From a virus: 64,000 nt of DNA. Positions 53,918-63,126 of this stretch are shown here, piece after piece (positions within the stretch are counted from its first letter, which is position 1; the number at the start of each line of letters is the position of its first letter). Under the pieces are notes generated by a model, which was given only the letters and a program-made list of their open reading frames with translations, made no database searches and had not been told where the DNA came from. The stretch covers positions 1 through 64,000 of the IMG/VR virus record IMGVR_UViG_3300032215_000643; one strand, given 5' to 3'. Made by a program: the position numbers and the translations under genes.

Positions 53918-54958
53918 ATGAAACTGTATCGACAAGAAAACCAACTGTGCTTCGATGACATTTTGTTGGTCCCGAATCCATCTGCTGTAGAAAGTAGAAA
54001 AAACGTAGATTTGTCTATGTCAATTGGATATGGGAATAGAAAGATTGATTTGTATTTGCCTGTTATTTCTTCTCCTATGGATACGGTTACCGAATCTGAA
54101 ATGGCTGTTGAGGTTGCTAAGTTTGGTGGTCTTGGAATTATTCATAGGTATTCTAAGATTGAAGATCAGGCGGCTCAGGTTTTTGAAGTTTCTAAAAAAG
54201 GTTATGCTGTTGGTGCATCTGTTCCAACGTCAGTTAGAGATTCAGTGCTTCCTCAAGTAAAGTCATTGGTTTATGTCGGTGCTAAAGTAATTTTAGTTGA
54301 TACTGCAAATGGTCATAACTTTGCTGCGATTAAGGCTGTTTCAGAAATTAGAAAAGAGTTTCCAGATATTCATATTATGGCTGGAAATGTTTCTACTTGG
54401 GACGGGTTCCTTCATCTTTCTCAGGCTGGAGCAGATTCAGTTCGCGTAGGTATCGGCGGTGGTTCATGTTGCAGTACACGAATTATGACTGGTCATGGCA
54501 TTCCGACATTGGCTTCTATTATGGAAATTTATGAATATCAAGAACGTCTAGATCTTCCTACGTCTATTATTGCAGATGGAGGAATTAGAAATTCTGGAGA
54601 TATGGTAAAGTCATTTGCGGCAGGCGCTGATGCAGTCATGGTTGGATCTATGCTTTCTGGTCACACAGAGTCACCGGGTAATGTTTTTAGGGAAGATGGA
54701 AAAGATTACAAGCGAATTCGTGGCATGGCAAGTTCTCATGCTCAAAAGGATTGGCGTGGTTCTGTAAGTGGTGAAGAGGGCATTTCAACTAAGGTCTTGT
54801 TTAAGGGTCCAGCAGAGAACACTCTTAATTCTATTAGAAACGGTATTTCAAGTGGTTGTTCTTATGCAGGTGTAGAGAGATTAGAAGAGTTAAGTATTAC
54901 ATCTCAGTATGTAAAAGTTTCACCTTTATCTGTAAAGGAGAGTTTGCCTCATGTATGA
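53918..54958 (+). CDS. IMP dehydrogenase / GMP reductase family enzyme
   Basis: 346 residues, with no CBS domains. The TIM-barrel signatures are present: FDDILLVP (opening), ISSPMDTVTE, GLGIIHR, VGIGGGSCCSTR (catalytic Cys region) and GGIRNSGDMVKSFAAGADAV. The flap (RIRGMASSHAQ, then EGISTKVLFKG) and the end (SSGCSYAGVERLEELS) look more like GMP reductase than IMP dehydrogenase. It interconverts IMP and (X/G)MP, so it alters purine pools, relevant to GTP and GDP-sugars. Confidence 0.8.
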   Translation: MKLYRQENQLCFDDILLVPNPSAVESRKNVDLSMSIGYGNRKIDLYLPVISSPMDTVTESEMAVEVAKFGGLGIIHRYSKIEDQAAQVFEVSKKGYAVGASVPTSVRDSVLPQVKSLVYVGAKVILVDTANGHNFAAIKAVSEIRKEFPDIHIMAGNVSTWDGFLHLSQAGADSVRVGIGGGSCCSTRIMTGHGIPTLASIMEIYEYQERLDLPTSIIADGGIRNSGDMVKSFAAGADAVMVGSMLSGHTESPGNVFREDGKDYKRIRGMASSHAQKDWRGSVSGEEGISTKVLFKGPAENTLNSIRNGISSGCSYAGVERLEELSITSQYVKVSPLSVKESLPHV

Positions 54959-58097: not shown

Positions 58098-58170
58098 ACG
58101 CCGGTATCCTAGCGGTTTTGGAAGCGGTCTTATATACCGTGTATCGTGAGTTCGATTCTCACCCGGCGTA
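58098..58170 (+). tRNA. tRNA-Ile (anticodon UAU)
   Basis: Complete cloverleaf: acceptor ACGCCGG (58098-58104) with CCGGCGT (58163-58169), TA at positions 8-9, a 3-bp D-stem TCC/GGA, an anticodon stem with one G-U pair, anticodon TAT at 58131-58133, a 5-nt variable loop, a GTGAG/CTCAC T-stem with TTCGATT loop, discriminator A58170. CCA is not encoded. It reads AUA, a codon that AT-rich genes use more often. It starts 3 nt after the terL stop. Confidence 0.9.
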
Positions 58171-58172
58171 CG

Positions 58173-58292
58173 GAGTTGCGAGAGATGATTCCTTGGGATG
58201 GATATAGTTACAGTATCCGAAATATCCACGGGAGCAGACAGGGGAGTCCTCTGATGCTGGTGTGCTGTGGAATTTTGCGCCTCTCGCAACTC
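58173..58292 (+). ncRNA. Structured RNA element of unknown class
   Basis: Closed by a perfect 12-bp helix, 58173-58184 with 58281-58292. Inside: helix 58187-58192/58269-58274 (one G-U), hairpin 58199-58205/58222-58228 (7 bp; 58200-58204 can instead pair with 58214-58218), and hairpin 58233-58236 plus 58239-58244 with 58248-58253 plus 58255-58258. About half G+C (61 of 120 by my count), well above its AT-rich surroundings. It starts 3 nt after the tRNA and ends just before a promoter. No T-loop, so not a tRNA. No class recognised. Confidence 0.6.
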
Positions 58293-58298
58293 TTAAGA

Positions 58299-58307
58299 TG
58301 ATATAAT
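58299..58307 (+). promoter_or_regulatory. Extended -10 promoter (TGATATAAT)
   Basis: TGATATAAT followed by TAAATAAAA, 7 nt after the structured RNA and 25 nt before the fibre-module ATG at 58333. No -35 box is visible. Confidence 0.55.
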
Positions 58308-58332
58308 TAAATAAAAGAAATGGTTGTATTTG

Positions 58333-58515
58333 ATGTCTAATATTGATAATGGATACTATATTGTTATTCAGTCTCCCGGTCCAAATAATGTTAATGTTAA
58401 ATCGCCGGGTCCACAGGGACCGCCGGGAACATTTATTAATAATATTGATGGTGGTACTCCTTCATCAGTATATGGAGGAAATATCATTATAGATTCAGGT
58501 GGGGTAGTTCAGTGA
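58333..58515 (+). CDS. Small collagen-like fibre protein
   Basis: 60 residues from the ATG at 58333 (a TTG at 58324 is possible). NIDNGYYIVIQSPGPNNVN leads into GPQGPPGTF (Gly-X-Y triplets) and a Gly/Ser-rich tail. Overlaps the following gene's GTG (GTGA). Fibre-attachment or stalk piece that opens the second fibre module. Confidence 0.6.
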   Translation: MSNIDNGYYIVIQSPGPNNVNVKSPGPQGPPGTFINNIDGGTPSSVYGGNIIIDSGGVVQ

Positions 58516-59921
58516 CAGTTCAAATTCAATTTAGGCGAGGTACCGCTGCTCAGTGGACGAGTGTTAATCCATTACTCTCTGAGGGAGAAATGGGTTTAGA
58601 GTTAGATACTGGAAAGTTTAAGGTTGGTAATGGTTCTACATATTGGAATTCTTTGCCTTATTCTTCTGGTCCTACTGGCGCTACTGGACCGCAGGGTGCA
58701 ACTGGTCCTCAAGGTGCGACGGGTGCAACTGGAGTGCAGGGACCATCTGGAGCAATTTCTGTATCTTCCCCCATTGTAAATTCTGGAACATCAACTTCAG
58801 CATCTCTTTCTTTTAATGGATCTGCTGCTTCTGTAGCATATGCAACTAATTCAGGTTCTTCTACTTATTCTTCAAGTGCTGGCGCTGCCCCAATTCCCGC
58901 AAGTGTTTCCTATTCTGCATCTAGTGGATTAGCAAACAATTCAACAAATTTTGCGGGACAAGCACAATCATATTATGCTCCGATTAGTTCACCTAATCTT
59001 ACAGGAACCCCATTAGCCCCTACTGCTGCATCTGCTACAAACACTACACAGATCGCAACCACGGCCTTTGTTCGTGGAGAAATTTCAAATCTTGTTAATT
59101 CTGCCCCAACAACTTTAGATACGTTAAATGAATTGGCGGCGGCTTTAGGAAATGATCCTAATTTTGCTGCAACAACTGCATCTACAATTGGTCTTAAAGC
59201 ACCAATTGCTAATCCAACTTTTACCGGAACTGTGAATCTTGGTTCTAATGTGGCAACTGGATCAGTTTCTAGTGCTTTAAATTCAGCATCTTTGGCTGGG
59301 CAGCCGGGATCATATTATTATCCTGCATCTTCAATTACCGCTGCTTCTGTAGCCTATGCTACAAATGCTGGTAATGCTACAACTTTGGGTGGACAATCTT
59401 CAGCATACTATTATCCTTCCGCTTCAATTACTACTGCATCAGTTGCTTATTCAACAAATGCCGGTAATTCAGCATCAACATCTCAAACTAATTTTAGTTC
59501 TTTAACAATTTCTGGTTCAAGCGTAGCAACTCAAAATTATGTTAATAATAAGTTTTTCTATGAAACAATTCCTTTTACGGTAACAGGCTCTGTGTCTACT
59601 GCTAGAGCATGGGATTATAGATTCTATAATGATACAGGCGGGACAAGATCAATTAATGGAGTTAGAGCAAGTTTAGGTTCCGCTCCTTCAGGATCTGCTA
59701 TGCTTATCGATGTAAGAAAGAATGGTGTTACCGGAGCGGCAAGTATATTCACGGCATCTAGTATATCCATTCCTTCTGGTTCTATAACATCTGGATTAAT
59801 AACATCTGGATTTAACAGTGGCTCAAGTATAGCCTCTAGTGATTATTTAACTGTGGCGGTAACTCAAGTTGGTTCAACAACTGCCGGTTCAGATTTAGTC
59901 GTTCAAGTTATGTGGAGTTAA
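58512..59921 (+). CDS. Collagen-like tail fibre, paralogue of the fibre at 23136
   Basis: 469 residues with a GTG start. The N-terminal 'IQFRRGTAAQWTSVNPLL', then 'GEMGLELDTGKFKVGNGSTY', is the common phage fibre-attachment domain. It is followed by Gly-X-Y triplets (GPTGATGPQGATGPQGATG), repeats of the type ASVAYATNAGN, and a C-terminal domain matching the end of the gene at 23136 (RFYNDTGGTRS, GSAMLIDVRKNG, LTVAVTQVGST). Its WSS-like end codons (TGG AGT TAA) hold the next gene's GGAG. Confidence 0.8.
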   Translation: MTVQIQFRRGTAAQWTSVNPLLSEGEMGLELDTGKFKVGNGSTYWNSLPYSSGPTGATGPQGATGPQGATGATGVQGPSGAISVSSPIVNSGTSTSASLSFNGSAASVAYATNSGSSTYSSSAGAAPIPASVSYSASSGLANNSTNFAGQAQSYYAPISSPNLTGTPLAPTAASATNTTQIATTAFVRGEISNLVNSAPTTLDTLNELAAALGNDPNFAATTASTIGLKAPIANPTFTGTVNLGSNVATGSVSSALNSASLAGQPGSYYYPASSITAASVAYATNAGNATTLGGQSSAYYYPSASITTASVAYSTNAGNSASTSQTNFSSLTISGSSVATQNYVNNKFFYETIPFTVTGSVSTARAWDYRFYNDTGGTRSINGVRASLGSAPSGSAMLIDVRKNGVTGAASIFTASSISIPSGSITSGLITSGFNSGSSIASSDYLTVAVTQVGSTTAGSDLVVQVMWS

Positions 59922-61801: not shown

Positions 61802-62677
61802 ATGACAGGAACAACATTGGGTGGATGGCCCGGTATTAAAACAGCAAAAGAGCAGGGCGTCCTTGTTTGGATTACGGTTCCCGGCACTACGAAGAAAGTT
61901 AGATTGCGTAAAGAGGTAGCACCAGTTTTTGCTGCTTTTCTTTCAGAAGTTCATAAGCATGTAATTGATCTTAATAAGGGTCCACTAGATGGATGGGAAT
62001 ATCGAGAAGCACGCACAGGTGCAGGTCTTTCTCAGCACGCCGGGGCGGTTGCGACAGATATGCGTTATGATGTTCTTCTTGCCGATCATAGACGGCACAT
62101 GACACAGACTCAGATTAATACAATGCACGCCTTACTAAATAAGTACACAACAACTAGCGGTAAGCGAGTTTTTGGATGGGGCGGGGATTGGCAAGTTGGC
62201 AAGTTTTGTGATGAAATGCATCTAGAGGCTGTGCAATCATGGTCCCCATACAGCCAAGGTCGCAATGCTACTGTAGCAGATTTCGCTAATGTGCAGAAGA
62301 AACTTCATATTAATTCTAATGGTACGTTTAGTGTTGTTGGTAAGGTTGTTAATCCTGTTGTTAAGCCTGTTCCTGCTGTTGTTGTTAAAAAGCCAGCGAC
62401 ACCACCTTCACCTGTTCCTGTTGCAGTTAAATCAGTCTCTGTAAAAGATTTTATTTTGGGTAAGTCAAGTGGTAGTGTTGTGACTGTTCAGAAGGCTCTT
62501 GCTAAAGAAAAATATTATGGTGGTGCTATTGATGGGGTCTTTGGACCTAACACCCGCGCTGCATATGCTCACTGGCAGAAGGCTTTGGGTTATTCTGGTG
62601 CAGATGCAAATGGTATTCCCGGCTTATCTTCTCTTACTAGTCTAGGTACAAAGTACAAATTTAAGGTTGTTGCATAA
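61802..62677 (+). CDS. Endolysin: M15 D-Ala-D-Ala carboxypeptidase-like plus peptidoglycan-binding domain
   Basis: 291 residues from ATG 61802; AGGAG at 61791-61795 is 6 nt away, better than ATG 61799. The catalytic half has LSQHAGAVATDMRYD (SxHxxGxAxD) near residue 78 and CDEMHLEAV near 140, the zinc site of VanY/M15 peptidases. A linker rich in Val/Pro/Lys precedes a peptidoglycan-binding-1 domain (VVTVQKALAKEKYYGG, DGVFGPNTRAAYAHWQKALG). It cuts the peptide cross-bridges of the cell wall. No signal peptide, so a holin would be needed. Confidence 0.85.
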   Translation: MTGTTLGGWPGIKTAKEQGVLVWITVPGTTKKVRLRKEVAPVFAAFLSEVHKHVIDLNKGPLDGWEYREARTGAGLSQHAGAVATDMRYDVLLADHRRHMTQTQINTMHALLNKYTTTSGKRVFGWGGDWQVGKFCDEMHLEAVQSWSPYSQGRNATVADFANVQKKLHINSNGTFSVVGKVVNPVVKPVPAVVVKKPATPPSPVPVAVKSVSVKDFILGKSSGSVVTVQKALAKEKYYGGAIDGVFGPNTRAAYAHWQKALGYSGADANGIPGLSSLTSLGTKYKFKVVA

Positions 62678-63126
62678 TGGATGAATTAATTAATGAACTA
62701 AAATTATTGCAAGCAAATGTTGTTGCGATGTATGCTCAGTCACATGGGTATCATTGGAATGTTAAGGGTATGTTGTTTAAAGAGTTGCACGCATTTTTTC
62801 TAGAAATTTATGAAGATGTTTATGGTTCGCTTGATCCTATTTCTGAGAATATTAGAAAACTTGGTGGGGATGCTCCGTTTGGCCTTAGCACATGGTCTAA
62901 CAATGCTACATTTGAGGTTAATGAAGATCCTAATCTTTCTCCCGTTCAGATGCTTGGCGAATTGATCGTTGTTAATTCAGTTCTTATAACTCAGTTGAAG
63001 AAAGTTTTTGTTCTCGCTGATACTCAAAATGAGCAGGGTGTTGCTAATTTTATTGCAGAGCGTATTGATCAGCATCAGTTCTGGAATTGGCAGTTGACTG
63101 CTACTTTAAGAACTACATTAGCCTAA
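62677..63126 (+). CDS. Dps-like ferritin-family protein
   Basis: 149 residues, the usual length of Dps. SHGYHWNVKG (His ligands of the inter-subunit ferroxidase site), FKELHAFFLEIYEDV and DPISENIRKLGG correspond to the conserved Dps helices, and ERIDQHQFWNWQLTATL to the C-terminal helix. It would store iron and protect DNA from oxidative damage. Overlaps the endolysin stop by 1 nt. A Dps in the lysis region is unusual. Confidence 0.8.
   Translation: MDELINELKLLQANVVAMYAQSHGYHWNVKGMLFKELHAFFLEIYEDVYGSLDPISENIRKLGGDAPFGLSTWSNNATFEVNEDPNLSPVQMLGELIVVNSVLITQLKKVFVLADTQNEQGVANFIAERIDQHQFWNWQLTATLRTTLA

Follow-up and report, generated by a model that had tools for sequence, protein, structure and literature searches.

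Small antisense RNAs of the c4 (P1/P7), OOP and CopA/RNAI type are structured, carry their complementary sequence in hairpin loops and likely pair in trans by a loop-loop contact first. The phage RNA described here is likewise a small structured RNA of this design, but those RNAs act on mRNAs or replication primers, whereas this one appears to target host 23S rRNA through a guide that fits the rRNA of the host clade. The C/D and H/ACA guide RNAs of archaea and eukaryotes also combine two rRNA-antisense elements in one small RNA; unlike them, the present RNA belongs to phages of bacteria, has no boxes recognizable by eye and has no known partner protein. MTERF4-NSUN4, in mitochondrial large subunit assembly, and MazF-mt6 act on the same rRNA helices (H68-71/loop 70), hence on subunit joining; both are proteins, whereas the proposed agent here is an RNA. 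T4 rnaC and rnaD (species 1 and 2) resemble it as stable RNAs of 119-139 nt encoded beside phage tRNA genes, but kinship was rejected, both lacking the 23S guide motifs and showing no sequence relationship. YrlA (Y RNA-like), GOLLD and other tRNA-linked RNAs have the tRNA neighborhood in common with it. YrlA (RF02553) was rejected at 13.9 bits against a cut-off of 69, the match lying largely over the tRNA, and GOLLD gave no match. To our knowledge, no phage RNA targeting ribosomal RNA has been described so far, and a search of the open-access literature found no description of one.

The window is the whole stretch of DNA that was analyzed, 64,000 nucleotides from an IMG/VR virus record (IMGVR_UViG_3300032215_000643, positions 1 to 64,000). 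An earlier note on this DNA had called attention to an unclassified structured RNA between a tRNA and a fibre promoter. The features of the locus are given below with 23S positions in E. coli numbering, in which 1910-1930 corresponds to helices 69-70 (H69-H70).

58098 to 58171, plus strand: tRNA-Ile (anticodon UAU), from ARAGORN and Rfam RF00005.
58172 to 58293, plus strand: the whole structured RNA, 122 nt, the long form of the family; fold z-score -3.1, relatives with compensatory changes in P1.
58172 to 58184, plus strand: 5′ arm of the P1 closing helix, GGAGUUGCGAGAG, paired with 58281-58293.
58191 to 58201, plus strand: guide A1, CCUUGGGAUGG, antisense to 23S 1920-1930 (actinobacterial CCAUCCUAAGG); 11 of 11 pairs, one of them G-U.
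58202, plus strand: single A opposite A1919, a spacer that is variable across the family.
58203 to 58211, plus strand: guide A2, UAUAGUUAC, antisense to 23S 1910-1918 (H69 loop); 9 of 9 Watson-Crick pairs.
58261 to 58265, plus strand: candidate guide B, UGUGC, complementary to 23S 1964-1968; its UGC is invariant.
58281 to 58293, plus strand: 3′ arm of the P1 closing helix, CUCUCGCAACUCU, paired with 58172-58184.
58302 to 58307, plus strand: TATAAT -10 box of the fibre-operon promoter, 12 nt before the ATG at 58320.

The structured RNA in the window is genuine, non-coding and outside Rfam. Its closing helix is perfect over 12 Watson-Crick pairs (58173-58184/58281-58292), exactly where the earlier note had placed it, and a G-U pair between 58172 and 58293 lengthens the helix by one. 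The minimum free energy is -50.1 kcal/mol compared to -39.0 ± 3.6 kcal/mol in dinucleotide shuffles, of which 1 in 200 was as good. The only open reading frame of at least 60 aa over the RNA is a 66-aa antisense frame that continues through the tRNA. The suggested Rfam search matched only this tRNA-Ile in the whole window: with the Rfam 15 covariance models at the gathering cut-off no non-tRNA family covers it, and at E ≤ 10 the window yielded, beyond tRNA, only weak chance matches lying over the tRNA.

ARAGORN ends the tRNA-Ile at 58171 and the RNA starts at 58172, directly 3′ of the tRNA as had been proposed. The tRNA 3′ end abuts the RNA, so 3′ processing of the tRNA would create the RNA 5′ end. 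The part of the co-transcription proposal that stands is that the RNA is probably processed from a transcript common to tRNA-Ile; the idea that it serves terL or the fibre gene as a riboswitch does not stand. The expected fibre promoter is present as a separate TATAAT that begins 9 nt past the RNA 3′ end, ahead of the fibre gene, and many relatives have a -10-like box at about a similar distance downstream. Elsewhere in the window, at 53918-54958 and 62677-63126, are genes resembling those of IMPDH/GMP reductase and of ferritin/Dps. An Mtd N-terminal domain is present in the fibre protein (58512-59921) without an accompanying reverse transcriptase; none (PF00078) was found in the 78.9-kb record, which is possibly incomplete, and a retron ncRNA (msr-msd) or DGR template RNA was rejected on this ground.

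The RNA is a member of a large undescribed phage RNA family. TerL relatives were taken from IMG/VR, and the RNA was spotted in them by synteny and not by RNA sequence. A diverged RNA follows terL in nine relatives (L005, L006, L008-L011, L014, L019 and L046), with P1 arms that have altered together (GGACUACAGGCAU, GGUUGGAGGUAGG and GAGUGGUAGGCA among others). A tRNA-Ile followed by the RNA, the tRNA-Ile sequences differing, is found in L005-L011, L014 and L046; L019 has only the RNA of the two, and L023 and L068 only the tRNA. Nearly the same RNA stands behind different tRNA-Ile genes in L007 and L008, which shows that tRNA and RNA are mosaic. With a conserved-core scan the family grew to 52 distinct long-P1 members, of which 37 are compact (69-91 nt) and the other 15 are of the long form (108-136 nt). 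A P1 of at least 8 bp was demanded when most members were collected, and the synteny set was free of that filter. One copy of the RNA per record was present in 12 of 12 records checked. TerL relatives L066, L067, L076 and L079 carry tmRNA genes with the tags GTTQTAFALAA, GKTQTAFALAA and GATQNALALAA.

The compact members have a three-way junction fold. A TATAAT-like box ends 2-9 nt (mostly 6 or 9) before P1 in 28 of the 37, from which a discrete transcript of the RNA is predicted, and six other compact members lie directly after the CCA of a tRNA-Met. The neighbors of the compact loci vary between members. Their own -10 box together with varied neighbors points to an autonomous trans-acting RNA and not to a terL/fibre riboswitch. 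In the subgroup of L222, L268, L286 and L115, the RNA is closely preceded by a small hairpin (GUCGGGGGAGACAGCGAC) that is conserved among them and may have a -10 box ahead of it.

The covariation analysis that the earlier note had called for was run on 43 structure-aligned compact sequences. Two-sided changes occur at 11 of 11 P1 pairs and 5 of 5 P3 pairs, 93.4% of cells are paired, and none of 500 shuffles reaches any of five measures. P2, the 5′ strand of which is the guide, varies almost only on its 3′ side. The family as a whole has 36 distinct P1 arm pairs that are 99.7% paired compared to 50% with shuffled arms; the long-form P1 was compared helix by helix, as it misaligns in MAFFT/RNAalifold. 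A covariance model built from 11 compact sequences recovered members outside its training set, with marginal E-values (0.05-0.2) for tRNA-cluster members in L051-L054, L028 and L022. Guide A lacks one G (GGAUG-UUAUAGUUAC) in an otherwise complete antisense in L051:8268-8349, L053, L054, L028:7239-7323 and L022:5254-5373.

What the earlier note overlooked is the key point: CUURGGAUGG-n-UAGUUAC, the core conserved in the family, is antisense to 23S 1910-1930. In the window, CCUUGGGAUGG-A-UAUAGUUAC forms 20 of 21 pairs with actinobacterial 23S (19 Watson-Crick and one G-U, with an A-A at A1919), and the calculated duplex energy is -30.8 kcal/mol. This 21-nt segment lies in the hairpin that had been taken for a possible switch; the alternative pairings of 58200-58204 exist on paper, but complementarity to 23S, and not a switch, explains the conserved bases. 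The AGUUAC of guide A2 is an exposed hairpin loop (unpaired probability 0.96-1.0 at 58206-58211). A point against the antisense reading is that GGAUGG is mostly paired within the RNA, although guide A2 and the UUG in guide A1 are accessible. The core CUUAGGAUGG-n-UAGUUAC was scanned over 84,980 bacterial and archaeal genomes and found at no fewer than 119 loci; among the matches listed, 119 of 119 are the antisense strand of an actinobacterial 23S gene at GUAACUAUAACCAUCCUAAGG. There were no matches to the core motif in 3000 shuffles of 23S plus 16S.

Conservation follows the pairing. A 12-sequence alignment of the long form has 17 invariant columns, determined without rRNA in mind, of which 14 are in guide A and 3 are the UGC of guide B. 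The invariant bases are those that pair with 23S, the bases opposite 1917-1919 vary, and the A/G variation at core position 4 keeps the pairing as A-U or G-U. Guide A1 is invariant among relatives. Core conservation is partly circular, in that many members were found via the motif, and the terL-synteny set is exempt from this. The energy of the whole-RNA duplex with the 23S region is ordinary against shuffles (median z -1.3; 0.05 for the window member), but saturation by long gapped duplexes deprives these RNAduplex z-scores of any information. Contiguous-guide tests were used instead, and the case therefore rests on the contiguous guides. Complementarities to 23S or 16S outside domain IV were not consistent across members. 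Judged from these complementarities, the RNA very probably pairs with host 23S.

A second conserved element (UUCGUGC, GUGCAGG or GCAGGU) is complementary to 23S 1961-1976. The part of the RNA after guide A was compared with 776 windows of 23S, and the best scores were at starts 1952, 1948, 1956 and 1960, although taken singly many family members rank this site no better than chance. At guide B the window member matches over only 5 bp, most other members over 6-13 nt, and guide B of the window is a weaker claim than guide A.

The GGAUGG of guide A has a counterpart that follows the rRNA of another host type. The 23S sequence is CCAUCC in actinobacteria versus CGGUCC in non-actinobacteria (read here in Salmonella 23S). 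The motif CTTAGGACCG-n-TAGTTAC was found at 120 or more IMG/VR loci (74 distinct), none of them a 23S gene among the matches listed. Most GGACCG loci (61 aligned) form a second RNA family with its own covarying hairpins: one with guide A, one of the GGCGGCUGCUGCC type that covaries, and a third whose loop has three forms: UUCGCUACC, antisense to 23S 1929-1937; ACGCCAUUC, antisense to 23S 1968-1976; and GUCGUGC, the UCGUGC of which is antisense to 23S 1964-1969. These are three unlike loop sequences with one common 23S target region. One RNA copy per record was present in 10 of 10 second-family records checked. There are smaller forms as well. The L448 type consists of a guide hairpin and a terminator-like hairpin with the loop AUUCGCUAC, L529 has an exact 20-nt antisense followed by a terminator-like hairpin, and L470:1882-1901 (minus strand) presents an exact 20-nt antisense to 23S 1910-1929 as a hairpin loop (AUUUCU/AGAAAU) close after a tRNA-Val in a cluster of tRNAs on a 144-kb virus contig.

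Guide type and host type go together. WhiB, an actinobacterial marker, is encoded by 11 of 12 GGAUGG-type phages (the window record and 10 of 11 others) versus 0 of 6 GGACCG-type phages (p ~0.0004, uncorrected for relatedness), and by 1 of 14 control genomes, that one from Corynebacterium. The guide thus follows its target, with the GGAUGG type in WhiB-bearing actinophages and the GGACCG type in phages without WhiB. The window phage infects actinobacteria. The extended complementarity to a target, conserved above the rest of the RNA, and a guide that changes with that target are both features of the antisense RNA class.

T4-like TAAATA boxes lie just downstream of the RNA in second-family loci such as L451, L468 and L538, and upstream too in some. 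The conserved 3′ tail of the second family (AAGUGAGC) fits the GCUCACU of the 23S GTPase center as well, and one contig of this family carries a group I intron (L532:11273-11500; Rfam RF00028). In Erwinia phage vB_EamP_Frozen, which is N4-like and in culture, a 257-nt unannotated gap among the clustered tRNA genes (L562:1117-1373; KX098389 41189-41445) contains the hairpin CCG-AUUCGCUAC-CGG, the loop of which is antisense to 23S 1930-1937, without guide A. This hairpin may be another member or chance.

The reading that we favor, with a probability of roughly 0.6, is that the locus encodes a trans-acting phage antisense RNA that would bind domain IV of host 23S on free or maturing 50S subunits. 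The P2 hairpin is a likeness of the H69 complement, with a loop that sits opposite that of H69 and a 5′ strand matching the 3′ strand of H69 together with the beginning of H70. Classical antisense hairpins, in which the loops make the first contact, have this geometry. In the proposed mechanism, the stable P1 helix would display the hairpin with the loop UAGUUAC, the complement of the helix 69 loop in 23S, and a loop-loop contact with H69 would start pairing. CUURGGAUGG would then invade 23S 1920-1930 (H69 3′ strand and H70), and the loop of the second hairpin would pair with 23S 1961-1976. Contacts on both flanks, by guide A and the second loop, would leave H70-H71 clamped between them, and free or immature 50S would be held unfolded in the H69-H71 region during infection.

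Published work bears on what such a contact could do. Helix/loop 70 is required for 50S-30S association, a mutation or cut there prevents joining, and MazF-mt6 cuts it in free 50S and not in 70S (PMC5408214). In mitoribosome large subunit assembly, H68-71 are the last to fold and are kept open by MTERF4, and the open state clashes with the small subunit (PMC8492066). The target segments are at the subunit interface and last to fold, so the likeliest effect would be a block of 50S maturation or of 30S-50S joining. By analogy with these systems, we propose, at just short of an even chance, that binding of the RNA to free or immature 50S stops completion or joining of the subunit. The benefit of such a block is not obvious, since the phage depends on working ribosomes.

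That puzzle disappears if the RNA protects ribosomes. It would pair on both sides of H70 and shield or refold the UUCCU loop (1939-1943) against toxins of abortive infection such as MazF-mt6, which cut free 50S, and ribosomes would stay usable for the phage. Guides A and B flank 1931-1960, and MazF-mt3 and MazF-mt6 cleave exactly there, mt6 in 50S only (PMC5408214). The UUCCU itself, however, is outside the pairing, and the second family occurs in phages that carry no actinobacterial markers and whose hosts are not known to have such toxins. We consider protection unlikely.

A role in leading an enzyme to host rRNA or rDNA, be it a modification enzyme or a nuclease, the HNH protein encoded next to the RNA, is suggested by the small HNH-like protein immediately beside 23 of 52 first-family RNA loci versus 15 of 733 other ORFs; several different HNH types are among these neighbors (L201, L206, L221, L268, L105, L083, L160, L109 and L046). 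Also somewhat reminiscent of modification guides is the spacer, opposite which 1917-1919, the region of pseudouridine 1917, stay unpaired. Against this, the HNH cases are mostly from one clade, the minimal versions (L448, L470 and L529) are antisense plus hairpins alone, and a search of the window record for the Pfam HNH family PF01844 found nothing, the ground on which an RNA-guided HNH system (IscB/HEARO-like) was rejected. An enzyme guide is quite unlikely.

It is improbable that the RNA alters ribosomes without blocking them, to the advantage of phage mRNAs such as apparently leaderless ones. The compact loci have a downstream -10 box ~7-12 nt before an ATG and MazF cleavage of rRNA is reported to favor leaderless translation (PMC5408214), but the leaderless reading is based solely on consensus -10 boxes.

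The earlier idea of a cis-acting element (riboswitch, attenuator or terminator) between the terL/tRNA and fibre genes would suit the position of the RNA in the window, the stable P1 hairpin and the U-rich sequence that follows it in some relatives. It is very improbable given the -10 box that most compact members have of their own, separate downstream promoters, occurrence in tRNA clusters with changing neighbors at no fixed 5′ UTR position, and the antisense match of the conserved core to 23S. Equally hard to credit is a DNA-level coincidence in which the core, with no RNA function, copies a universal homing-endonuclease target: the 23S segment is a known homing hotspot (I-CeuI-type site) and HNH genes are nearby, but members having a promoter and/or a tRNA show the antisense orientation only and no sense copy was seen, A-to-G changes preserve G-U pairing to rRNA, the guide order A-B differs from that of a copied rDNA antisense strand, and RNA covariation is strong.

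Among 50,697 named phage records there was no clear copy of the RNA, close DNA matches being tRNA or chance, and no cultured carrier phage was found among them. Most exact 20-nt matches in records labeled 'phage' have the appearance of contaminating 23S; Paenibacillus phage Pd_22F and several unannotated records with a 20-nt match were assigned to neither contamination nor carriers.

For phages more widely, we think it rather probable that at least two independent lineages, and probably further ones, have evolved small RNAs that pair with the universally conserved H69-H71 region of host 23S through guides matched to the host phylum and so control ribosome assembly or subunit joining in infection. 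If true, this would be an RNA arm of host translation takeover not known before, H69-H71 would be marked as a target that nature itself uses for antisense, and a function could be given to some of the gaps in phage tRNA clusters that have had no explanation. It would also make a host-phylum signature legible from phage sequence alone. The many other phages with similar host-matched RNAs suggest an undescribed RNA-based viral action on bacterial ribosomes.
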